Origin: Anaeroplasmataceae bacterium
GTDB taxonomy: Bacteria; Bacillota_I; Bacilli_A; Acholeplasmatales; Anaeroplasmataceae
Reading direction: 5' to 3'
NCBI GenBank assembly: GCA_029057785.1
Contig: JAIDZC010000003.1
Location: forward strand, 1 to 34,719
DNA length: 34,719 bases
In this document: positions 17,747 to 33,701 of the stretch, one piece after another
How positions within the stretch are numbered: the first letter of the stretch is position 1
Layout of the letters: each line of letters starts with the position of its first letter
Notes under the pieces: model-generated
Seen by the model: the letters and a program-made list of their open reading frames with translations, nothing else
What the model was told of the DNA's origin: nothing
The model's database searches: none
Position numbers and translations under genes: made by a program

Positions 17747-19204
17747 ATGAAAAAAAAGTTAACAAATATCGAAGTTATTCTAATTGTAGGTACTACAATT
17801 AAGATTTTAGGTCTAGTTTACAAGATTTTACTCACAAGAATACTAACCATAGAGGGTATGAGAATTATGTCCTTTGTATTTCCAACCCTGAGTTTAGTTT
17901 TATGTTTATCCTCCCTATCCATTCAAACTGTAGTCAATCAAAATATATCTGCAAAGCTAAATAGTTCAAGAACGATTTTGAAATCTGCCTTTCGGATTAC
18001 CTTTATTTCCTCTTCTATAATTTCTATTATACTTCTGTTTTCTTTTCCGCTTTATAAACTAATTTATCAAAATAGCTTTATTTACTATCCTCTTTTAATC
18101 TGTATTCCTTTAATCTATTTATCTAACACCTCTGGTTTATTTAAAGGATATTTAGAAGCAAACAATAATTTTAAAACACCTTATTTTTCTAATCTTTATG
18201 AGCAAATTGCGAAGTTCACTTTGACATTCTCTATGCTGTTCATCTTTGCTAAACAAAGCTTAGAGTTTAAAATATTTATGTGTTTTTTTGCTCTTATGCT
18301 ATCTGAAGTAGTATCCTTTACTTATCTGTTTTTTAAAGTGAAGAAAAAGCATAAATTTGCTTATCGAATGATTGAAACAAATGGTTATGAAAAAAGCATA
18401 TTAAAACAAGCTCTTCCCCTAACTCTTGATCAGCTTGCAGTAACCATAACAGGCTATCTTGAGCCACTTATATTTTACTATGCAATGAGCTTAAATGGCG
18501 TGAATATTTATGAGTCCACCCTATACTATACACAAGTCTGCTCTTATGCCGTTCCTCTATTGCTATTTGCCCAGTTTGGAATTTATAGTATCACGAAATA
18601 TACCTTTCCTAAAATTACAAAAAATCAAGGAAAGCCTGAACTACATCAAATCTTATCCAAGGCTTTCTTCCTTTCTATGGTAATTGCAGCTTCCAATCTA
18701 GTCTTGAGTTTATTTTATGCTAAAGAAACATTAAATCTGATGTATAAGGATTCTAGTGCGTATCCTATTGTAGAAAAGCTTGCCATATTTTATCTCTTCT
18801 CTTATTTTAATCCAATTCTTATCTCTATTCTTCAGTCCTACAAAAAAGAAAAAAAGCTATTGGTATGCTCCATAGCTTCATATACAGTAACATTGGGATT
18901 AGTATTTATCTTAACATATCTTTATGGCAAATCTGGATTCTTGACAAGTATCGTTATCGGCAATATGCTAAAATTCAGTCTGCTTCTTTTCTTTGCCAAT
19001 CAAGCGGTACATTTTAAACCGCATTTGAAACGCTTGTTGCCATTAGGAGGAATTGTTGTCATTTATCTATTAATGAATTACTTTCACAAAAGTCTATTCA
19101 CTTTAATTATCTCAACTCTACTATGTGGCCTGTTAGCTCTGGTTCTTTTTTATCTTTTCTATAGTAAAAATAAAAAGTACTCTTATGCAAAGACGCATAA
19201 ATAA
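17747..19204 (+). CDS. MOP-superfamily flippase (SpoVB/MurJ/polysaccharide exporter type)
   Basis: A 485-aa protein with about 12-14 hydrophobic helices and almost no soluble domain, as in lipid-linked sugar flippases. The N-terminal KILGLVYKILLTRILTIEG and the later GLFKGYLEANNNFKTP and LPLTLDQLAVTITGYLEP segments match the SpoVB-like branch, which moves lipid II or polysaccharide precursors, but substrate cannot be told from sequence. The start follows AAGGTTG. It is divergent from apt. Its last 98 nt overlap the 3' end of the opposite-strand yetF-like gene. Confidence 0.85.
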   Translation: MKKKLTNIEVILIVGTTIKILGLVYKILLTRILTIEGMRIMSFVFPTLSLVLCLSSLSIQTVVNQNISAKLNSSRTILKSAFRITFISSSIISIILLFSFPLYKLIYQNSFIYYPLLICIPLIYLSNTSGLFKGYLEANNNFKTPYFSNLYEQIAKFTLTFSMLFIFAKQSLEFKIFMCFFALMLSEVVSFTYLFFKVKKKHKFAYRMIETNGYEKSILKQALPLTLDQLAVTITGYLEPLIFYYAMSLNGVNIYESTLYYTQVCSYAVPLLLFAQFGIYSITKYTFPKITKNQGKPELHQILSKAFFLSMVIAASNLVLSLFYAKETLNLMYKDSSAYPIVEKLAIFYLFSYFNPILISILQSYKKEKKLLVCSIASYTVTLGLVFILTYLYGKSGFLTSIVIGNMLKFSLLLFFANQAVHFKPHLKRLLPLGGIVVIYLLMNYFHKSLFTLIISTLLCGLLALVLFYLFYSKNKKYSYAKTHK

Positions 19205-19778
19205 TTTTCTTGTGATTTAGATGATGCTTATCTAGCTTCTTCATGAAGTCTTCATAGTCCCATTCTAAAAGCTTTAGACTATCCTTTATAATTTGACCAC
19301 TCATAATCACAGGGAGCTTGATTTCGTCAAAGCGTTCTTTTCTAAAAATCGACAAGGTTCCATTTGTCTCTAGAATGGCTAGCTTTATTTCATCAATATC
19401 CATAATATGTTCTAATCTCATTTGGGACACTAAATCGTCTACGGTATAGTGTTCCTTTTTCATATTTTGAATCAGAAGTTTGCCATCTAACACAATTGTT
19501 GTAGGAGATCCATCAATGATGTTTCTGAAAAAGGCACATTTAATCAGTAAAAGACTAAGTAATTTCTGCAAGACAACCAAAACAAATACACAAAAATAAC
19601 TAGGAAGAATAAACTGATCATTATCAATACCTAAAGCGCCAATATCTGCAATAATTAAAAGGACAACCAAATCGAAAATAGAAAGCTCTCCGACCTCTCG
19701 CTTTCCAAGTATTCTTAAAACTAAAATCAAACAAAAAAAGATAGCAGTTATCTTTAATAATAATATCCCATAGTTCAC
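19107..19778 (-). CDS. YetF/DUF421-family membrane protein
   Basis: Three N-terminal transmembrane helices hold the family motif RILGKREVGELSIFDLVVLL. The soluble C-terminal part contains the TTIVLDGKLL and YTVDDLVSQMR segments found in this family. Bacillus homologues are linked to spore or membrane functions of unclear mechanism. The start is either the GTG at 19776-19778, 6 nt after AGGTGA, or the ATG at 19784, which abuts that site; I prefer the GTG. About 223 aa. Its 3' end overlaps the flippase gene by 98 nt, so the YetF tail and flippase tail constrain each other. Confidence 0.85.
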   Translation of the reverse strand: MNYGILLLKITAIFFCLILVLRILGKREVGELSIFDLVVLLIIADIGALGIDNDQFILPSYFCVFVLVVLQKLLSLLLIKCAFFRNIIDGSPTTIVLDGKLLIQNMKKEHYTVDDLVSQMRLEHIMDIDEIKLAILETNGTLSIFRKERFDEIKLPVIMSGQIIKDSLKLLEWDYEDFMKKLDKHHLNHKKIIYASLHKSTFYFYYRKDKKEPELTGHIVELR

Positions 19779-19847
19779 TTGCATTCACCTAAAGTTATTT
19801 TTAACATAAAATACAATTCCTATTCATATATTTAACTGGTGAATCAT

Positions 19848-20207
19848 ATGAAACAAAAAGTGAAAAGTGGTATTAAGATTTATTTATTTTTAGTATTATA
19901 TTTAACAGTAGCAACTATAATCTATACTATCTATATCAACAAAACCAGTCAGGACTTTAACTTAATCGTAAAGTTAGTTATTGGTGGCGTTGCCTATATG
20001 ATGTTAGGATTTACCTATGCGAATGCAATTCATAAAAAAGGGCTTATTGTAGGACTATTTGTAGGACTTCTGCATTTCTTTCTCATCGCCTTAGTTTATT
20101 TTTTATGTACTGGAAAATTTGAATTTCAGGTTTTACCTTTCTTCATAAGTGTATTACTTTCAGGAATTGGCGGTATGCTTGGCGTTAATCTTAAGAAATT
20201 ATTTTAA
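19848..20207 (+). CDS. Four-helix membrane protein (TIGR04086-like)
   Basis: A 119-aa protein with four hydrophobic helices and a basic N-terminus (MKQKVKSG). The pattern GGVAYMMLGFTYANAIHKKG followed by GLFVGLLHF and a final SGIGGMLGVNLKK matches the TIGR04086 family of uncharacterised membrane proteins common in clostridia. The start at 19848 is 5 nt after GGTGA; the GTG at 19839 belongs to the ribosome-binding site. It lies 41 nt before rarA on the same strand. Confidence 0.75.
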   Translation: MKQKVKSGIKIYLFLVLYLTVATIIYTIYINKTSQDFNLIVKLVIGGVAYMMLGFTYANAIHKKGLIVGLFVGLLHFFLIALVYFLCTGKFEFQVLPFFISVLLSGIGGMLGVNLKKLF

Positions 20208-20248
20208 AAATCGCATAAATATGATACAATAAGCAGTAGGTGATGTAT

Positions 20249-21460
20249 ATGAAGCCATTAGCTTATCGAATTAGACCAAAAGCATTTGATGATATTGTTG
20301 GGCAGGATCATCTGGTAGGACCTAAGGGTGTCATAAGAAAAATGCTAGAGACAAATCAGCTTTGTTCTATGATTTTATATGGACCTGCAGGATGTGGGAA
20401 AACCTCTATTGCAGAGATTATTGCAAGCTACTACGCTCTAAATTCCTACCATTATAATGCTTCCATTGATAATAAAGCAAAGCTTAAAGAAATTGCAGAG
20501 GCTGCAAAACTTTATCAAAACGTTATATTGATTATTGATGAGATTCATAGAATGAAAAAGGATGTTCAGGATTTTCTTCTTCCCTTTGTAGAATCTGGTG
20601 CATTAACCATTGTTGGCTTAACAACCGAAAATCCTTATCGTGCAATCAATCCTGCTATTCGTTCTAGAACACATATTTATCGTCTAAATGAAATCACAAA
20701 GGAAGATATTATCAATCTGCTAAAGAAAACAATAAAACAAGAAAAAATGAAACCTATTACAGAAGATATCTTAGAGTATATTGCAATTGTGTCTTCCTGT
20801 GAGGTTCGTTCTAGTTTAAACATGCTAGAAATTGCAAATATGCTTGAAGAGGATGAAATCACTTTAGACAATGTAAAAGCATTAATTGGTAAAAAAAGCT
20901 TCGCCATAGATGAGGAAGGCGAAAGCTATTACGATATTGCTTCTGCAATGATTAAATCCATCCGTGGAAGTGATCCGAATGCTGCAGTCCACTATCTTGC
21001 AAGACTATTACAATCTGAAGATATTGAATTCATTGCTAGGCGTTTGATGATTTTAGCTTATGAGGACGTCGGGCTTGCAAATCCAAATGTGGGCCCTAGA
21101 GTTTATGCTGCATGTCATGCAGCCTTAGAAGTCGGTCTTCCTGAGGCAAGAATTCCTCTATCCTATGCTGCCCTAGATTTAGCTACTTCTCCTAAAAGTA
21201 ATTCTGCCTATCTAGCAATTGATGCTGCTTTAGCAGATTTAGAACAAATGACTTCTATGCAAATTCCTCCACATATCCTAAATAAAGAATTAAAAAGCCA
21301 TAAATATACATACCAATATCCGCACGATTTTAAAGGTGGCTATGTCAAACAGCAATATCTACCTGATGATCTTATCGATAAGGTTTATTACGAGCCAAAG
21401 GATACAGGAGCTTATGAACGCGGAATTAAGGAATATTTAAATAAATTAAAACAAAGCTAG
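20249..21460 (+). CDS. rarA: Replication-associated recombination ATPase RarA (MgsA)
   Basis: This AAA+ ATPase related to clamp loaders acts at stalled replication forks. Walker A GPAGCGKTS and Walker B LIIDEIHR are intact, with the sensor-1 region GLTTENPYRAINPAIRSR. The C-terminal MgsA-type tetramerisation region includes HYLARLLQSEDIEFIARRL and the KSNSAYLAIDAAL motif. The start is the ATG at 20249, 5 nt after AGGTGA. 403 aa. Its stop codon overlaps that of the opposite-strand FtsK-like gene (21457-21460). Confidence 0.95.
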   Translation: MKPLAYRIRPKAFDDIVGQDHLVGPKGVIRKMLETNQLCSMILYGPAGCGKTSIAEIIASYYALNSYHYNASIDNKAKLKEIAEAAKLYQNVILIIDEIHRMKKDVQDFLLPFVESGALTIVGLTTENPYRAINPAIRSRTHIYRLNEITKEDIINLLKKTIKQEKMKPITEDILEYIAIVSSCEVRSSLNMLEIANMLEEDEITLDNVKALIGKKSFAIDEEGESYYDIASAMIKSIRGSDPNAAVHYLARLLQSEDIEFIARRLMILAYEDVGLANPNVGPRVYAACHAALEVGLPEARIPLSYAALDLATSPKSNSAYLAIDAALADLEQMTSMQIPPHILNKELKSHKYTYQYPHDFKGGYVKQQYLPDDLIDKVYYEPKDTGAYERGIKEYLNKLKQS

Positions 21461-23133
21461 AATTTGATTTTTTCAAAGTCAGCTACAGATACATAAGGTG
21501 TTTGTCCATGATATAAGGTGCCATCCTTTCGAATGAGGACATCACCTTTTTTTTGTAGTCTGCACGCCATATCAGAACCAAAAAGCTTTACAGAAGTGGA
21601 AACATCACTCATATTAAAGGCGATAATATCACACTTATTCATCTCTAGCTTAGAAAGTGCATTTTTAGTTCTGGCAACAATAATCATCGTCATACCTGCA
21701 CGTGCAGAAAAACGAATTGCATAAGTAATCTTTTGATATAAACTCGCCGATATGCTTCCCATATCTAAACATAAAAAATGAAATTGAGGCAATAAAGGCT
21801 CCATATCAAGATTAGATTTTTTGATCTGTGCATTTGCTTCTTCTATGCTATCACAATTAAAATATTTTAAAACCTCATTCCTTCTTTCATATTCACTAAA
21901 GGCTTCATCTAAGGCGATAGACGCAGACTTCTCGTTGTTGACATACAAAAAGCCATCCTTATTCATTTGTGGAAATTCATGTTCAAAATCGTAAAAATAA
22001 ATATCACTGTACTTTATATTTTTGATTAAAATGCTTAGAACCAAGCTACGGATAAATGTCTTAATTCCACTTGTCGTATCTCCCGTTAAAACAATGAGTC
22101 TTCCTTCCTTCGCCTCAAAGCTGATATGACTTCCATCTACATCTACTGCTAAAGGTATCTTTTTACTGCTTCCTTCTTCCATCAGCATTGTTTTTAAGGT
22201 TAATAGCTTACGAAACTGATTCGGATAATCTAAAGCATACCCGTTTTCCTGTTTAATGAAAAAACACTGTCTATTAAAGAATCCTAAAATAGCTTTAATT
22301 TCCTCATCATTTCTATGGGCAAATTTCATTAAAATTCGTGAAGACGAATAGGAAGTCTTATAGCTATCTACCATAGCGTAGATTTTTCTTTCCTTTACAA
22401 AGTTTTTAAAGTTTTGAAATTTTTCTTTATTGATTTCATTTTGCAAAGTGAAATTCACTTGTTCTTCTGTATCCTCTAAGCTTTGCATAGTCATCTTTTT
22501 GGTTTGTTTTTTAGCAATTGTAGGGTAATGAATATTTTTAAAATATTTTTTTGTTGCGGTAATAGCCTGTTTGGGTAGCTTGGTTAAATGCCCTCCTTTA
22601 AAAATATTTAAAATCTTTAAGTTTGCAAAATAAGAGATTCCAATCAGCATAAAAGCAATGCCTAATAAAATACTACCAATCTTACTTACCAATAGACATG
22701 TTACCTGTAAAATCAGTGCCCCTATAATCCCACCACCACAGCTATAGCTAATGTTATAAGATTTTAAATAATGCTTATATAGGTCTAAGGTTTTACTTAA
22801 AATATTTGTACTAGACATTCCTAAGGCATCGTATAATCCTAAATGTGCAAACATTAAAAATGCTACAAAGATAAAAACCGATCCGATAAAGGAGATATGA
22901 TGGAAATCTAATCTCTTTTTTAAAAATAAGAATATAATGCAATAGCCCAGAATAAAGGCTAAAATTACAGTAGAAAAATCTCCAATCAAAAAGCTAAAAA
23001 ACAAGGCTAGTGTTCTTCCTGCCAAGCCTACTCTTCCAATCAATATAATACATAAAATACTGACACCAATACACACAGCGATATATAAATAATCCTTCTT
23101 TTCACGAATGATATGATTCTTAACCTTAGGCAT
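21457..23133 (-). CDS. FtsK/SpoIIIE-like protein with degenerate ATPase motifs
   Basis: A 558-aa protein with the FtsK/SpoIIIE layout: four or five N-terminal transmembrane helices (to about residue 175), a basic linker, then alpha and RecA-like beta domains. Similarity is clear (IYFYDFEHEF for the usual DPK segment, FSEYERRNEVL for MERRYELL). But the P-loop GATGSGKS aligns to GDTTSGIKT (351-359), with Ile in place of the catalytic Lys, and Walker B aligns to FHFLCLDMG (451-459), with Met for the catalytic Glu. The C-terminal winged-helix gamma domain that reads DNA polarity is absent. The frame is intact. It is likely a non-translocating relative acting as a septal membrane scaffold (inference). 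It lies downstream of rnj, behind a terminator; start ATG after GGAG. Confidence 0.85.
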   Translation of the reverse strand: MPKVKNHIIREKKDYLYIAVCIGVSILCIILIGRVGLAGRTLALFFSFLIGDFSTVILAFILGYCIIFLFLKKRLDFHHISFIGSVFIFVAFLMFAHLGLYDALGMSSTNILSKTLDLYKHYLKSYNISYSCGGGIIGALILQVTCLLVSKIGSILLGIAFMLIGISYFANLKILNIFKGGHLTKLPKQAITATKKYFKNIHYPTIAKKQTKKMTMQSLEDTEEQVNFTLQNEINKEKFQNFKNFVKERKIYAMVDSYKTSYSSSRILMKFAHRNDEEIKAILGFFNRQCFFIKQENGYALDYPNQFRKLLTLKTMLMEEGSSKKIPLAVDVDGSHISFEAKEGRLIVLTGDTTSGIKTFIRSLVLSILIKNIKYSDIYFYDFEHEFPQMNKDGFLYVNNEKSASIALDEAFSEYERRNEVLKYFNCDSIEEANAQIKKSNLDMEPLLPQFHFLCLDMGSISASLYQKITYAIRFSARAGMTMIIVARTKNALSKLEMNKCDIIAFNMSDVSTSVKLFGSDMACRLQKKGDVLIRKDGTLYHGQTPYVSVADFEKIKF

Positions 23134-23185: not shown

Positions 23186-23212
23186 AAAAAAAGGCTACTT
23201 CGTAACCTTTTT
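23186..23212 (-). terminator. Terminator overlapping the end of the rnj-like gene
   Basis: Arms 23188-23198 and 23202-23212 pair (AAAAGG/CCTTTT core), and the rnj stop codon (23195-23197) lies inside the stem. Minus-strand RNA continues into a T-rich run. It partly separates the RNase J-like gene from the FtsK-like gene. Confidence 0.7.
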
Positions 23213-24892
23213 AGAATTTTCTATATCCGTTGATATAAGTACTGGAATGATGATAGGATTTCTTTTTGTTTTCTTATAAATAAAATGCTGAAGCTCTGTT
23301 TTTAATGTAGTCTTATATTCGCTCCAGTTAATAAATTTATTTACTAAAAACTGAATAGAAACCTTTTTAAATACTTCAATAATATCTGTATTTAAATCGC
23401 CATCCACATTGGTATAAACAAAACCTTTTGAAATAATTTCAGGTCCAGCAACTAAAGATTTTGTGCGTGGATTGATGTTTGCACATAGCATCAAAAGTCC
23501 ATCTTCTGCTAAAAGCTCACGATCTTTCATGACAACATCGCCAACATCCTTAAAGGCTTTACCATCTAGCATAATTTCTCCTACAGGAACTTCTCCTGTA
23601 ATTCCTCGATATTCCCCATCAATAAATGTTGCAATATCTCCCGAGTCTAATATAACAACACGATCATCCTTATATCCTAAGCAGTTTGCAACAATTCGCA
23701 AAGCATACTGATGACGATATTCTCCAATCACAGGAATAACATACTTAGGTAATAGGATATTAATCATCTGTTTAATTTCTTCTCGGTTTGCAGAAGACTG
23801 AGGTAATAAATTTGAGTTAAATTCCTTGACATTCGTAGTTACACGATAAATCACATCTAAAGTTCTAGCAGCCATTTTCTCTGTACCAAGATAAGGGTTC
23901 GTTAAAATGACAATCGTATCAGTAGGCTCTAAATGAATAAGTCTGTCAATATGCTTTGCCATACGTTGTAACATAAAGTAAGGCTCATGGCGTTCTCCTG
24001 TGACTAAAACCACTAGGTTTTTATCATTGTTCTTTACTTTATCATCAATGAATTTTAGATTAGCCAAATTATTCTCTGGGCATTTTAAATAGCCTAGCTG
24101 CATTGCCTGATTCACTAATCTTTGAGTTTTTCTACCTAAAATCGCAATCTTTTTATGCTCCGCAACTGCAATATCAATAATTTGTTGAATTCTTAATAAG
24201 TCAGAGGAAAACAGCGTGAAGATCACACGATGTTCAGAATGAGTCAATATGTTTTTAATTCGCAGATTAAATTCCATAATTGTTCCTCTATTTTGATCAT
24301 TGTCTGCTCCTAAACTTTCTGTCATTAAGGCTAATACACCCTCTTTTGAGAAAATTGCAAGTTCTCTATACATCTGAGCATAGTTAATCTTTGAGTTTTG
24401 ATCAAAATTATAGTTTCCTGTATAAATGATATATCCATCCGGAGTTTTAATTGCAATTCCTAGACAATCTGGAATACTATGGGCAACATCAAAGAAACGG
24501 ACATCAATATCCTTAAAATGTAATAAGGACTTAGAATTTACTGTAATAAATTTATTTTGTTCAACAGGATATTCCTCTTCCTTTAATCGGTCAAGTAATA
24601 CTGCCATCGTAAATTTTGATGCGTAAACAGGAACCTTTACTTCCTTTAGAATATTGTATACTCCACCGATATGGTCATCATGTGCGTGAGTTAAAAAGAT
24701 TCCCACTACTCTATTTTTATTTTGAATTAAAAAGGAAATATCATTGATAATCATATCCACACCATAAAGTTCGGCTGTTGGATACTTTAATCCTGCATCT
24801 AAGATAAATAATCTATGATTAATTTCTACAACATATAGATTTTTTCCATCCTCTTGGAGTCCTCCAAGCGAAAATATGTTCAGTTCTGCCAT
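23195..24892 (-). CDS. RNase J-family protein with partly lost active site (J2-like)
   Basis: A 565-aa metallo-beta-lactamase/beta-CASP protein. The first metal motif HAHDDH (69-74) and the AHSIPD histidine (H138) remain. Other canonical residues are gone: TGDFKFD is TGNYNFD (Asp to Asn at 160), the HVSGH signature reads LPQSSA (363-368), IPVHGEYR reads IPVIGEYR (389 His to Ile), and the phosphate-binding TGSQGEP reads TGERHEP. In Bacillus the RNase J2 paralogue is weakly active and works as partner of J1; this looks like a further-decayed partner, with an active J1 expected elsewhere. The ATG is fixed by an in-frame TGA 6 nt upstream. The leader has a hairpin (24904-24923). Nuclease loss is inferred from motifs. 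Confidence 0.88.
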   Translation of the reverse strand: MAELNIFSLGGLQEDGKNLYVVEINHRLFILDAGLKYPTAELYGVDMIINDISFLIQNKNRVVGIFLTHAHDDHIGGVYNILKEVKVPVYASKFTMAVLLDRLKEEEYPVEQNKFITVNSKSLLHFKDIDVRFFDVAHSIPDCLGIAIKTPDGYIIYTGNYNFDQNSKINYAQMYRELAIFSKEGVLALMTESLGADNDQNRGTIMEFNLRIKNILTHSEHRVIFTLFSSDLLRIQQIIDIAVAEHKKIAILGRKTQRLVNQAMQLGYLKCPENNLANLKFIDDKVKNNDKNLVVLVTGERHEPYFMLQRMAKHIDRLIHLEPTDTIVILTNPYLGTEKMAARTLDVIYRVTTNVKEFNSNLLPQSSANREEIKQMINILLPKYVIPVIGEYRHQYALRIVANCLGYKDDRVVILDSGDIATFIDGEYRGITGEVPVGEIMLDGKAFKDVGDVVMKDRELLAEDGLLMLCANINPRTKSLVAGPEIISKGFVYTNVDGDLNTDIIEVFKKVSIQFLVNKFINWSEYKTTLKTELQHFIYKKTKRNPIIIPVLISTDIENSKKVTK

Positions 24893-24977: not shown

Positions 24978-25715
24978 TTAAACGTATTTTTCAATATATT
25001 TTTTAATAATATTTGCAGCAGAAATATATGCGAATTTAGAAGGAATTGCACTCACAATTTCATAAGAAATTCCGTACTCATATATTTTGTTTATATCAAA
25101 TCCATAAGGCGCGGAAGCAACATCAATGATTCTCTTATTCCTTAATGAAGCATAGTCCCAGTCTATGTTGTAAGGAACCGTATTGATGATCACATCATCT
25201 TCCTTATAATCCGTAGTTTTATACCCTAAAAGATGTGCATACTTTTCTTCTGCTTCATTCATAGGATAAATCGAAAAACTACAGTCATTCGCTTTTAAAA
25301 GCTCTGCAAGAGTAAATCCAATATTGCCAAAACCAACAATAAGAATTTTCTGATCGGATATTGCCAAATTCTTTCTGCTTAAATAATCAATGATTCCCAT
25401 TGAGGTTAGTTTTGCATTTGGAATAATAAATCTATAATCCTTTAAAAGCTCAATCAACTTAATATTTCTTTGTTCGCATAATTCCTTAAGCTTACTATTA
25501 GCATTTCCAACTAGAATTGTTTTTATAGCATTTTCCCTTAAAATGTCTAACAAATTTAGATTAGACTGCTTGATATTGTATTCCTCATCAATTCCCCCAA
25601 AGGGTAACAATAATACATCAATATCCAAAAAATCATATAATTCGTTTGAAAATATAGCTGGCATAAGCTCTGCTAAAGCCTCATAACGAATATCCCCTTT
25701 TACTATACCTAACAT
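24978..25715 (-). CDS. Dipicolinate-synthase-subunit-A-like protein (SpoVFA/DpaA homologue)
   Basis: A 245-aa protein with a Rossmann dinucleotide fold: ILIVGFGNIGFTLAELL (mid-protein) is the GxGxxG loop. The flanking pattern (LLLPFGGIDEE near the N-terminus, VIINTVPYNI, RIIDVASAPYGFD, and the C-terminal IPSKFAYISAANIIKKYI) matches the layout of dipicolinate synthase A, which with subunit B makes the spore compound dipicolinic acid. It is shorter than the usual ~295 aa, and no subunit B gene is adjacent. The start is the ATG at 25713-25715 (after GGTGA); an earlier GTG lies inside the preceding terminator. It could have become a different dehydrogenase-like protein. Confidence 0.7.
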   Translation of the reverse strand: MLGIVKGDIRYEALAELMPAIFSNELYDFLDIDVLLLPFGGIDEEYNIKQSNLNLLDILRENAIKTILVGNANSKLKELCEQRNIKLIELLKDYRFIIPNAKLTSMGIIDYLSRKNLAISDQKILIVGFGNIGFTLAELLKANDCSFSIYPMNEAEEKYAHLLGYKTTDYKEDDVIINTVPYNIDWDYASLRNKRIIDVASAPYGFDINKIYEYGISYEIVSAIPSKFAYISAANIIKKYIEKYV

Positions 25716-25752
25716 TTCATCACCGTTTTTAGTGTATGAAATACAAAAAGAA

Positions 25753-25771
25753 AAGGTGCCCATAGCACCTT
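25753..25771 (-). terminator. Terminator after the CBM20-like gene
   Basis: Stem AAGGTGC/GCACCTT (25753-25759 with 25765-25771) with a 5-nt loop is followed on the minus strand by TTTTCTTTTT. Confidence 0.8.
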
Positions 25772-26265: not shown

Positions 26266-26835
26266 ATGAACTTTCCAACAAAGAAAAAAGAACAAAAAAA
26301 GGTAATTAATAAAGCCAATCTAGGTATGGACTTAGAACAGGCAATCAATGAAAGTAATACCTATTATTTAAATAATGATATTGCTGTGATTCACAAAAAG
26401 CCTACTCCAGTCCAAATCGTAAAGGTCAATTATCCTTCAAGAAATAAGGCGGTTATAACGGAGGCCTATTATAAAACTCCTTCTACTACCGACTATAATG
26501 GAATCTATAAAGGAAAATATATTGATTTTGATGCAAAGGAAAACCACAATAAAACTGCTTTCCCTCTAGCCAATGTTTCTGCCCACCAGGTAGAGCATTT
26601 AAGAGCTGTTCAGGCACATGGTGGAATTGCATTTTTGCTTGTAGTCTGGAATATGTATGATGAATATTATTTATTACCCTTTGACGTTTTGTTCGAATAT
26701 TGGAATGCATCCTTGAAGGATGGCAGAAAGTCCATTCCCTATGAAGCTTTTAAAACAAGAGCCTATCCAATTAAGCATGGCTACTTGCCAAGAATACCTT
26801 ATTTAAAGGTCATCGATGAAATCTATTTTAAATAA
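26266..26835 (+). CDS. recU: Holliday junction resolvase RecU
   Basis: A 189-aa endonuclease of the RecU family that cuts four-way DNA junctions in recombination and chromosome segregation. Family landmarks: NLGMDLEQAINESN near the N-terminus, the acidic catalytic run YIDFDAKENHNKTAF (nuclease-fold D...E.K), and HQVEHLRAVQAHGGIAFLLV. The start at 26266 is 5 nt after GGTGA; an earlier in-frame ATG at 26245 lies in the promoter-like region. The stop overlaps the start of the penicillin-binding protein gene, an arrangement conserved with ponA in Bacillus-type genomes. Confidence 0.95.
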   Translation: MNFPTKKKEQKKVINKANLGMDLEQAINESNTYYLNNDIAVIHKKPTPVQIVKVNYPSRNKAVITEAYYKTPSTTDYNGIYKGKYIDFDAKENHNKTAFPLANVSAHQVEHLRAVQAHGGIAFLLVVWNMYDEYYLLPFDVLFEYWNASLKDGRKSIPYEAFKTRAYPIKHGYLPRIPYLKVIDEIYFK

Positions 26836-28768
26836 ACTGCTTCTAGCCTTTACCATACTTACACTTATCATCACAATTATTGGAAGCATTGGTGGAATTA
26901 TTCTTTTTAGAAATGCCAGCAATACTTCCATTTTTATTCGCGAGAACAGCAAGCCTATCTATATCTATGATGATACAGATACTCTTGTTTCTTCAGACAG
27001 CTTGTACTATGAATATTGCTCAATCCAGGAGGTAAGTCCTGAAATAATTCATGCTGTGGTGGCGATTGAGGATAATGACTTTTACAAGCATCCTGGAATT
27101 TCTATTCCGAGAATTGTGCATTCTATTTATCAAAATATAACCAATGGTTCTATTATTTCTGGTGCTTCTACAATTACTCAGCAATACATTAAGAACACCT
27201 ATTTTACAAATGAAAAAACCTTCTCAAGAAAAATCAATGAAATTGCTTATGCCTTAGAGCTAGAGAAAAAATATACAAAAGATCAAATTATGGAAGCCTA
27301 TTTAAATACTGTTTTATTTGGCAGTAATATCTATGGCATCAAAATGGCATCAAAGTATTACTTTGATAAAGACCCAAAAGACATCACAACAAATGAAGCA
27401 GCAATTCTTGCAGGTATGATTCAGCTTCCAAACCATTATAATCCTTTAAGAAATCCAGAGGCTGCTACTACACGCAAAAATTTAGTATTAAAACGAATGT
27501 GGGAAGAAAACTATATCTCTGAACAGACCTATAATGAATTGAAAGAAATCTCTGCTAAAGATATCGTTCAAAAAGGCTTTACCAATCAGAGGATTACCTA
27601 TTTAACCCCTTATCTTGACTATCTTTTTTCTAATCTGCCACAAAATAGTGATACCATCACTTCTATTAAAACCTATTTAGATACAAATATTCAAAAAACA
27701 CTTTTTTCAATTATGAATAATGACTATAAATTATTTAATGATGATGAACTAAATTGTGCCATTGTTGTTTTAGATAATGCTACCTATGGGGTCAAAGCCA
27801 TTGCAGGAAATAGATCCTATGATGAACGTGTAATCAATTATGCAAGCGATGTTCTTTTACAGCCAGGGTCTACAATTAAACCACTTTTAGACTACGCTCC
27901 AGCCATAGAATATTTGAACTATACTCCAGCCACTATAATCAAGGATGAAGAATATACATATAAAAATGGAACTAAGCTAAAGAATTATGATAATAATTAT
28001 TTGGGAGCTATTACCTTAAGAAAAGCCTTAAGTGATTCAAGGAATATTCCTGCAGTAAAGCTGTTTAATGAAGTCGGGTATGAACGTGCTTTTGGTTTCT
28101 TAAAAAATTTAGGCATTGAAAAAACAGATACCATCTATGAGGCAGATGCCATAGGTGGGGCAACTACAGGATATACTCTTCTAAGTCTAGCAAATGCTTA
28201 TCAAGCATTCGCCAATCTAGGATACTATAAAAAAGCTAGCGCCTATAAAGAAATTGGTTATGAGCTATCTACCTACAAAAATGATTCATCTGCTAAGCTC
28301 GTTATGAAGCCAACTACTGCTTTCTTAATTAATTCTATTTTGCACGACGTGTTTAAAGGAAGTGTATTTGATCAAAAAAGTACCTATATGATGGCTAAAA
28401 CAGGACAAACGAATTATGATCAAGCCTCTATCCAAAAATATCATCTTCCTAGTAATGCAACTAAAGATTCCTTATTAATCGCTTATACAAAGGACTTAAC
28501 CATCGGTGTATGGGTAGGATATGAACGTATCATAGATGGAAAATTCTTAGACTATTATAAGAAAAATATTCCTAGAAGTATTATGAAAATGCTATTGGAT
28601 ACATTTGCAAAAAAAGGGTTATACTATGAAGAAATTGAAGGAATTCAAAAAAGCTACATTACAATTTATCAAGACCAGGTCTATTTGGCTAAAGATAATG
28701 GGTATTATGAATACTTCTTAGAAGGGACCCAACCTCTAACCTATCCAAATTATGAATTTAAGGCATAA
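26816..28768 (+). CDS. Class A penicillin-binding protein (glycosyltransferase/transpeptidase)
   Basis: A bifunctional peptidoglycan synthase of 650 aa anchored by one N-terminal transmembrane helix (about residues 8-31). The glycosyltransferase 51 domain shows AIEDNDFYKHPG (E85 catalytic), GASTITQQYIKN and AYLNTVLFGSNIYGI. The transpeptidase domain has STIK (352-355, nucleophile S352), SRN (408-410) and KTG (528-530). All catalytic motifs are intact. It is a little short because it ends soon after the transpeptidase, without the long C-terminal extension of PonA. It overlaps recU by 20 nt and is therefore coupled to it, and ends at a strong terminator. Confidence 0.95.
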   Translation: MKSILNKLLLAFTILTLIITIIGSIGGIILFRNASNTSIFIRENSKPIYIYDDTDTLVSSDSLYYEYCSIQEVSPEIIHAVVAIEDNDFYKHPGISIPRIVHSIYQNITNGSIISGASTITQQYIKNTYFTNEKTFSRKINEIAYALELEKKYTKDQIMEAYLNTVLFGSNIYGIKMASKYYFDKDPKDITTNEAAILAGMIQLPNHYNPLRNPEAATTRKNLVLKRMWEENYISEQTYNELKEISAKDIVQKGFTNQRITYLTPYLDYLFSNLPQNSDTITSIKTYLDTNIQKTLFSIMNNDYKLFNDDELNCAIVVLDNATYGVKAIAGNRSYDERVINYASDVLLQPGSTIKPLLDYAPAIEYLNYTPATIIKDEEYTYKNGTKLKNYDNNYLGAITLRKALSDSRNIPAVKLFNEVGYERAFGFLKNLGIEKTDTIYEADAIGGATTGYTLLSLANAYQAFANLGYYKKASAYKEIGYELSTYKNDSSAKLVMKPTTAFLINSILHDVFKGSVFDQKSTYMMAKTGQTNYDQASIQKYHLPSNATKDSLLIAYTKDLTIGVWVGYERIIDGKFLDYYKKNIPRSIMKMLLDTFAKKGLYYEEIEGIQKSYITIYQDQVYLAKDNGYYEYFLEGTQPLTYPNYEFKA

Positions 28769-31903: not shown

Positions 31904-31980
<77 letters not shown>

Positions 31981-31991
31981 TTTTGTTATAT

Positions 31992-32025
31992 AAGAGGCAC
32001 TAGTTAGATGCCTCTTTTTGTTTTT
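31992..32025 (+). terminator. tRNA-Arg terminator
   Basis: Stem AAGAGGCA/TGCCTCTT (31992-31999 with 32009-32016) is followed by a T-rich run. Confidence 0.85.
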
Positions 32026-32141
32026 ACAAGTAGCTAAACGATATATTCTTTTTATTTACATTTTTAAGTTTAAGTAATTATATCATAGATGATATAATTT
32101 ATCAATAAATTTTGTGCTAAAAAGACCTTGAGTAAGGACGA

Positions 32142-33701
32142 TTAAACTTGTCCTACATTCAAGGTCTTTTCTACTTGTTTTGATTTAATTCTCACAAACT
32201 CCAAGTAATCCATATACTCTTCATAGCTTGTGAATCCAAGCCTTTTCATTTCTTCTTTGGCTTTCTTGTATTCACTTACTGAGTTATCTAGAGGTTTATC
32301 AGTTCCACCTGACATAAGTGTGTCTATGACTTGAACTGCTTGGGCATCACTGCTTTTTAGAACGTATGCATAGATGTCTGAAGTTGTAGATGGTTTGGAA
32401 TGCCCAGCTCTAGCTGATACTGTGACTAGAGGAATACCTGCGGCTAGTTGAACTGCTATGTTGGTATGTCTTAAGCTATGAAGTGAGAAATGAGATAATC
32501 CACAATCTACCAAGAAAATATTTAACCACTTATCTAATACAGAAGGGTGAATATTCTTTCCAAATTCTCCTGTGAATACTTTATCAGTTGGCATGAACTG
32601 TTTTCCTTTACTCTTTTGATCTTCTTCTTGCCATTCCTGATATTCTCTTAATTGTGCCATAAGAGATGGAGATACAGTGATTGACCGAGCTGATTCTTCA
32701 GTTTTTGGACCTTTTTCTATACAACCAACGCCAGTGATTTGAACAATCGTATTTTGAATTTGAATTTTGTTTCTATCAAAATCAATATACTTCCATTCTA
32801 ATCCAGCCACCTCTCCACGTCTAAAGCCTGTAAGTATAAAGACCATTAAAGCTGTCTTTATCTTTATGTTCTTATAGTTTAGTAAGCCATCAATAAATAT
32901 TTTAATCTCTTCATCATTCATTGTTTTTACATTTCTTTTAGGTCGTTTAGGAAAGTCAATATACTCTGCTGAAGCATAATTATCTTCAACGAGTCTATTC
33001 TTCTTTGCCATTGCCAAGATAGTTCTAACAGTTTTCTTATAATGCTGGATTGTTTCATATGCATATGGCATTTCTTTTTCGAGTGTTTCAAACAATTCAT
33101 CAAAAGGAATCTTGGTAACTGAGCATAATCTGTCAGCCCATTTCTTTGATACATTCTCACATTTCAACGCTTTAGATAGTGTGAAACTTTGAATATTATA
33201 CTCATATCTTAATTTACGATAATCAAAGTCTTTGTCAGCCAACTTCTTTCTAAACTCTTGTCTAGGCTTGTATTGAACCACTCTCCTCTTTCTCTCATCA
33301 AGGCTATCATAGAACCTTTGAATGATTAGAGGTGTTAATTCTCGGAGTTTATAGCCACCTATAAATCCTTTTAATTCCTCAACTATCTGTTTAGACCTAG
33401 TATAATGAACTAAAGAACATTCCCTTTCGATTTTCTCTAACCAGAGGAGTGAATATTCGTAGAATGTAATATTAAAATTGTTTGCAGATATTCCACCATC
33501 AAGTAGTCCTCTTCTTACTTCCTCTTCAAAGAGATCTGCTTGACACTGAGCTTCTTTCATTAACTGCTTAGCTGGTAAATCTTCAGTGGGTTCCCATATC
33601 ATACTTTTACGGACTCTTTCTCCACTTCCCTTATCAATAATATCAACTTCCAATCTAAAGACAGTTCCTGTTTTTCTGACAATCTTTCTTACATACGCCA
33701 T
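32142..33701 (-). CDS. int: Tyrosine integrase of an integrative element
   Basis: A 519-aa site-specific recombinase, long for the family. The C-terminal catalytic domain has TGFRRGEVAGLEW (Arg 294), K333 region GPKTEESARS, HSLRH (408-412), the AGH histidine (434) and Tyr 444 in SDIYAYVL, so the catalytic set is complete. An N-terminal SAM-like core-binding domain is split by an insertion at about 150-210 that reads like a helix-turn-helix (FTLSKALKCENVSKKWADRL). The 3' end points at tRNA-Arg, and an excisionase-like gene lies upstream, the usual int/xis/att layout. ATG after AAAGGAG. Confidence 0.95.
   Translation of the reverse strand: MAYVRKIVRKTGTVFRLEVDIIDKGSGERVRKSMIWEPTEDLPAKQLMKEAQCQADLFEEEVRRGLLDGGISANNFNITFYEYSLLWLEKIERECSLVHYTRSKQIVEELKGFIGGYKLRELTPLIIQRFYDSLDERKRRVVQYKPRQEFRKKLADKDFDYRKLRYEYNIQSFTLSKALKCENVSKKWADRLCSVTKIPFDELFETLEKEMPYAYETIQHYKKTVRTILAMAKKNRLVEDNYASAEYIDFPKRPKRNVKTMNDEEIKIFIDGLLNYKNIKIKTALMVFILTGFRRGEVAGLEWKYIDFDRNKIQIQNTIVQITGVGCIEKGPKTEESARSITVSPSLMAQLREYQEWQEEDQKSKGKQFMPTDKVFTGEFGKNIHPSVLDKWLNIFLVDCGLSHFSLHSLRHTNIAVQLAAGIPLVTVSARAGHSKPSTTSDIYAYVLKSSDAQAVQVIDTLMSGGTDKPLDNSVSEYKKAKEEMKRLGFTSYEEYMDYLEFVRIKSKQVEKTLNVGQV

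Follow-up and report, generated by a model that had tools for sequence, protein, structure and literature searches.

SpoIIIE of Bacillus subtilis has two activities, parting the septal membranes that surround the trapped chromosome and pumping DNA (PMC4423119), and it is counted as a core sporulation gene (PMC3533761). An ATPase-dead form, SpoIIIE(ATP-), still allows fission of the septal membranes but does not translocate DNA (PMC4423119, citing Fleming et al. 2010); fission requires the SpoIIIE transmembrane domain together with the large extracellular loop of that domain (PMC4423119). SftA, a soluble Bacillus translocase, is unable to rescue septum-trapped DNA in B. subtilis (PMC4744071). 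In the EccC/EssC proteins of type VII secretion, degenerate Walker motifs within an FtsK-like fold are kept for structural or regulatory use (PMC11154593). A survey of Anaeroplasmataceae reported sporulation genes, including spo0A, in many members of the family and did not mention SpoIIIE/FtsK (PMC10868615). Our literature search, which covered mainly freely accessible papers, returned no description of a natural motor-dead SpoIIIE or of a degenerate SpoIIIE in this clade.

Here, we analyzed a 34,719-nucleotide stretch of contig JAIDZC010000003.1 (the window) from an Anaeroplasmataceae bacterium (assembly GCA_029057785.1), which encodes an apparently motor-dead relative of SpoIIIE, referred to as pseudo-SpoIIIE. 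The protein resembles B. subtilis SpoIIIE in its membrane domain and alpha/beta motor fold, its link to sporulation, and an rnj-spoIIIE neighborhood like that of outgroup family f15, but its Walker A and B motifs are broken, the gamma domain is missing, and the motor is not the conserved part. The fission-competent, translocation-deficient laboratory form (PMC4423119) likewise joins a membrane domain to a hydrolysis-dead motor, whereas pseudo-SpoIIIE is natural across several families, has its catalytic residues erased, and has lost gamma. SftA belongs to the same superfamily, and an intact SftA-type protein occurs in the same genomes; pseudo-SpoIIIE is the reverse of this soluble protein with its intact motor and gamma domain, since it has a membrane domain, a broken motor, and no gamma domain. 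The degenerate domains of EccC/EssC share a polypeptide with an active motor, while in the present case the whole protein appears to be motor-dead and the motor is on a separate soluble protein.

A membrane protein of the FtsK/SpoIIIE fold with degenerate Walker motifs

The pseudo-SpoIIIE gene (positions 21457 to 23133, minus strand) encodes a 558-amino-acid (aa) membrane protein of the FtsK/SpoIIIE fold in an intact open frame, as the initial annotation had stated. Its predicted layout consists of a membrane domain (approximately residues 15 to 169; positions 22627 to 23091, minus strand), a linker (residues 170 to 212), an FtsK alpha-like domain (residues 213 to 320), and a beta/RecA-like domain (residues 321 to 558), after which the chain stops. 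Four hydrophobic stretches are located at the N terminus, and a conserved GGG motif (residues 133 to 135) lies at the end of a loop, ahead of the last helix of the membrane domain. The protein matched the Pfam FtsK_SpoIIIE profile (PF01580) at 27.7 bits (cutoff, 24), and no match to FtsK_alpha or FtsK_gamma (PF09397) was found in it. The score against FtsK_4TM was 13.2 bits, below the cutoff of 23.1, and two orthologues scored above the cutoff (26 bits in genome G004 and 27.2 bits in G016, the latter with its neighbors in frame). FtsK_4TM gave no match in the B. subtilis control and is too insensitive for order-wide detection of membrane SpoIIIE; a family profile was used instead. By hhalign profile comparison, the membrane domain of the pseudo family matched that of intact SpoIIIE with a probability of 99.8, which, together with the four hydrophobic stretches, upholds the earlier claim that the membrane domain had been kept. 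Only one alpha-beta unit is present, compared to the several FtsK-like ATPase domains of EccC/EssC.

The degenerate Walker A motif (positions 22057 to 22083, minus strand; residues 351 to 359) reads GDTTSGIKT, with Ile in place of the P-loop Lys and a Lys one position later. In the degenerate Walker B motif (positions 21763 to 21783, minus strand; residues 451 to 457), FHFLCLD is followed by Met, so that the Asp is kept and the catalytic Glu is lost (FLCLDM); Leu occupies the latter position in congeners. Both substitutions had been proposed in the initial annotation, and both were found to extend beyond the window protein: both GxxxxGK[ST] and the Walker B Asp-Glu pair are missing from all 25 aligned pseudo-SpoIIIE members, and no relative of the gene with an intact P-loop was encountered in the order. 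Structural residues persist, including the strand-2 Asp (25/25) and the Arg of MExRY (23/25). Families f1, f4, and f19 have another residue at the position of the P-loop Lys, for the most part Ile, Val, Leu, Met, or Tyr; within Anaeroplasmataceae, the altered loop itself shows the conserved pattern SG[IVLM][KR]T, with R362 after it. Members of f12 retain the Lys but have lost the preceding Gly and following Ser/Thr; in f7 and f9, the P-loop is beyond recognition. Loops from members of these last three families read GNDINSKID, GMYQDDLQS, and GSYQNENIA. As judged from sequence, pseudo-SpoIIIE lacks the hallmarks of an active FtsK/SpoIIIE DNA translocase, namely, Walker A, Walker B, and gamma. 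The most degenerate relative is a 514-aa protein (L020) in which the P-loop is partly deleted and several motor segments are missing; its host, G016, is SpoIVA positive and has a soluble FtsK.

An AlphaFold2 model of pseudo-SpoIIIE was built from 17 window and locus sequences. The pLDDT was mostly 85 to 90 in the cytoplasmic part, and the membrane part was less certain (about 40 to 75). A 345-residue alignment of the predicted cytoplasmic part to solved FtsK motors was obtained (Z of about 32; Foldseek E value of 3e-18), so that the predicted fold is that of FtsK. A phmmer search of the window protein against solved structures found nothing useful. Model residues 213 to 320 align with the alpha subdomain of FtsK, which the initial annotation had missed. 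Since the alignment covers 345 residues, the alpha and beta folds are both predicted to be kept and gamma alone to be missing; the absence of gamma, already claimed from the letters of the sequence, is thus borne out by profile search and predicted fold alike. The predicted fold and the synteny described below rule out an unrelated protein with a chance resemblance to FtsK.

Probable orthology to SpoIIIE

Directly upstream of pseudo-SpoIIIE, on the same strand and separated by a 61-bp gap, is the gene for ribonuclease J (RnJ; positions 23195 to 24892, minus strand), which marks the spoIIIE neighborhood. Further upstream lies a DpaA-like gene of a divergent dipicolinate synthase subunit A family (positions 24978 to 25763, minus strand). 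On the other side lies a convergent gene for an MgsA/RarA-type AAA+ ATPase (positions 20240 to 21460, plus strand), which adjoins RnJ directly where relatives have lost pseudo-SpoIIIE. The gene order DpaA-like...RnJ-SpoIIIE is common to the pseudo-SpoIIIE carriers of f12, f7, and f1 and to G180, a genome of outgroup family f15 that has an intact SpoIIIE (776-aa open frame) in the dpaA-rnj-spoIIIE neighborhood.

In a motor-only profile comparison, the pseudo family scored 287 against SftA and 246 against SpoIIIE, and in the motor-domain tree, the pseudo motors fell outside the SftA group (100/99) on very long branches, and the opposite placement was not rejected (p-AU of 0.31). Because the motor profile scores and tree do not discriminate, orthology rests on synteny and the membrane domain. 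The window gene is best explained as the SpoIIIE orthologue, given its dpaA-rnj-spoIIIE synteny and its predicted SpoIIIE-type membrane domain. A mobile or conjugative FtsK-like protein is ruled out by the chromosomal, stable neighborhood.

Distribution and selective constraint

The pseudo-SpoIIIE family was found in 21 of the 160 genomes of the order, in f1 and f4 (Anaeroplasmataceae and one other family), and proteins of this kind (527 to 633 aa) are present in four further families of the class (f7, f9, f12, and f19). The named relatives are metagenome-assembled genomes, mostly labeled Anaeroplasmataceae, Anaeroplasma, or uncultured Mollicutes.

The loss of the catalytic residues and the gamma domain would be expected of a decaying pseudogene. 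Against such decay, every full-length member has an open frame, the gene is kept across six families, and dN/dS among same-genus members is 0.03 to 0.12 for the whole gene and for each domain, including the dead motor, these values being rough for several pairs in which dS exceeds 1. Open frames and a dN/dS this far from 1 rule out the pseudogene reading, to which we assign next to no probability. The initial annotation had suggested a retained pseudo-motor rather than decay and had named dN/dS among relatives as a check; the suggestion holds, with the P-loop degenerate across genera and families.

Between families, the membrane domain of the pseudo family is 30% identical and the beta domain 20%, compared to 23% and 64%, respectively, for intact membrane SpoIIIE. 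The best-conserved part is the membrane domain in the pseudo family and the motor in intact SpoIIIE. Constraint has moved from the motor to the membrane domain.

Association with sporulation

SpoIVA was used as a genomic proxy for sporulation in these uncultured bacteria. Within the order, pseudo-SpoIIIE is present in all 17 genomes in which SpoIVA exceeds the cutoff, and none of the 139 genomes without pseudo-SpoIIIE has SpoIVA above the cutoff (Fisher's exact test, relatedness ignored, P = 1.7e-19). When phylogeny was taken into account using the soluble FtsK tree, about 8 of 9 independent contrasts agreed and none opposed (P of about 0.008). The presence of pseudo-SpoIIIE follows SpoIVA through repeated losses. 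SpoIVA was not detected in four carriers: G002 (72% complete), G008 (380 contigs), G021, and G086, the last two of which still have the other genes of the pseudo-SpoIIIE locus. Conversely, G250 (f19; L278, L219) is SpoIVA positive and has a soluble FtsK, and no pseudo-SpoIIIE was detected in it, which may reflect a gap in the assembly (180 contigs) or genuine loss of the gene.

In eight informative non-sporulating relatives, in which the RnJ-MgsA neighborhood is present, pseudo-SpoIIIE is absent from its spot. The genes for the DpaA-like protein, DUF421, DUF3792, flippase, and PBP1 are also missing from the locus in the same eight.

An intact soluble FtsK in the same genomes

A second, intact FtsK had been proposed as a check, and the genome of the window has one (G000:C40). 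It is a 766-aa protein that carries GATKSGKS and VVDEF motifs and both alpha and gamma domains but lacks membrane helices, and this predicted layout is that of SftA (PMC4744071). An intact FtsK was examined in 32 pseudo-SpoIIIE genomes, and in each of them it is soluble (SftA type). In the intact-motor tree, an SftA-type group separates from a membrane SpoIIIE group (95/98), and the former contains the soluble motors found in pseudo-SpoIIIE carriers as well as those of f15, a family in which SpoIIIE and SftA are both intact.

Of the 41 genomes in the class sample with SpoIVA above the cutoff, 17 have the pseudo form, 23 belong to families with the intact membrane type (placed by family, f14, f15, f17, f21, and f22, with part of them read individually), and G250 has neither. 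Sporulators of these five families have an intact membrane SpoIIIE, except G201 (f14), a SpoIVA-positive genome in which large EssC-like FtsK proteins were the only ones detected and SpoIIIE and SftA were not, probably owing to an assembly gap. No SftA-type copy was found in the members of f14, f17, and f22 examined, in which the membrane type is present. In lineages that kept SftA, the SpoIIIE motor has in most cases been free to decay; in those where SftA was not found, it is intact.

Possible roles at the sporulation septum

We consider it likely, though well short of certain, that the window gene is this lineage's SpoIIIE, with a dead motor and a membrane half kept for sporulation as a septal channel or collar, and with any pumping performed by SftA. 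In this proposal, the membrane half and the overall fold would be under purifying selection because sporulation needs them. Pseudo-SpoIIIE would assemble at the asymmetric septum formed in sporulation and build a channel or collar there, which would separate the mother-cell from the forespore membranes where the chromosome is trapped, like ATPase-dead SpoIIIE of B. subtilis; a septal scaffold role is what we infer from this analogy. Chromosome movement, where needed, may be carried out by the soluble motor of the SftA type, which would act before the septum closes or while docked on a ring of pseudo-SpoIIIE. The docked arrangement, a split chromosome pump in which a motor-dead SpoIIIE channel and a soluble SftA-type motor meet as two proteins at the septum, is a tentative idea that we rate as less probable than its absence. 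Since B. subtilis SftA fails on septum-trapped DNA, a handover of pumping to SftA would not be an established behavior of this protein. If true, the split pump would be a long-lasting arrangement among the sporulating relatives of mycoplasmas.

Alternatively, there may be no pumping at all: sporulators with small genomes could have the entire chromosome inside the forespore by the time the septum closes, leaving the motor useless and only a role in septum sealing or membrane fission to survive. The loss of the motor and the superior conservation of the membrane domain between families agree with this, as does the sufficiency of ATPase-dead SpoIIIE for septal fission in B. subtilis (PMC4423119). 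However, the carriers checked keep a soluble SftA-type motor, and the SpoIIIE motor is intact in sporulating f14, f17, and f22, where no SftA-type copy was found, which suggests that a motor is still wanted; we therefore regard the absence of pumping as rather unlikely, although deserving serious attention. The conserved altered loop of Anaeroplasmataceae and the persisting structural residues of the beta domain would also suit a partner with a regulatory or structural role, which would join the intact motor in mixed rings or bind nucleotide without hydrolysis, in the manner of the degenerate, apparently ATPase-inactive domains of EccC, for which regulatory or hexamerizing functions were proposed (PMC11154593). 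The loop is replaced by unrelated sequences in f7, f9, and f12, so ligand binding is not general to the family, and a partner role of this kind seems improbable.

A slightly smaller probability still is given to a general cell division scaffold resembling the N-terminal domain of FtsK, with no special tie to sporulation. Division of Escherichia coli requires the FtsK N-terminal membrane domain (PMC3870252), but pseudo-SpoIIIE is wholly absent from non-sporulating relatives within the genus and family, and its association with SpoIVA survives correction for phylogeny. Because PBP1 is lost at the same locus and wall loss coincides, a tie to wall-bearing division is not fully separated from the tie to sporulation.

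Under the preferred reading of a motor-dead SpoIIIE kept for sporulation, these lineages would provide a natural separation-of-function experiment on a debated point, namely, whether the membrane part of SpoIIIE acts as a channel or fission machine apart from the motor, and the lineages in which an SftA-type motor may do the work of SpoIIIE can now be named. A gene matching FtsK/SpoIIIE would be counted as a functional pump, yet several families of sporulators appear to live with a dead one, and genome-based predictions of the sporulation machinery in this clade can be wrong.

Other genes of the window

The product of the DpaA-like gene scored 68 bits against an equivalog cutoff of 320 bits for dipicolinate synthase subunit A, making its predicted activity uncertain, and no DpaB was found beside it in the window. 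Positions 17747 to 20207 encode a SpoVB-like flippase, a DUF421 (YetF) protein, and a DUF3792 membrane protein. Since the DUF421 and DUF3792 genes are missing alongside pseudo-SpoIIIE and DpaA in non-sporulators, they are candidate sporulation genes in this lineage. The class A penicillin-binding protein (positions 26816 to 28768), also missing from the locus in non-sporulators, occurs here in a family thought to be without a cell wall. Finally, a tRNA-Arg gene (positions 31904 to 31980) is located next to a tyrosine-integrase-like gene called by eye (positions 32142 to 33701, minus strand), and positions 31904 to 33701 probably represent the edge of an integrated element.
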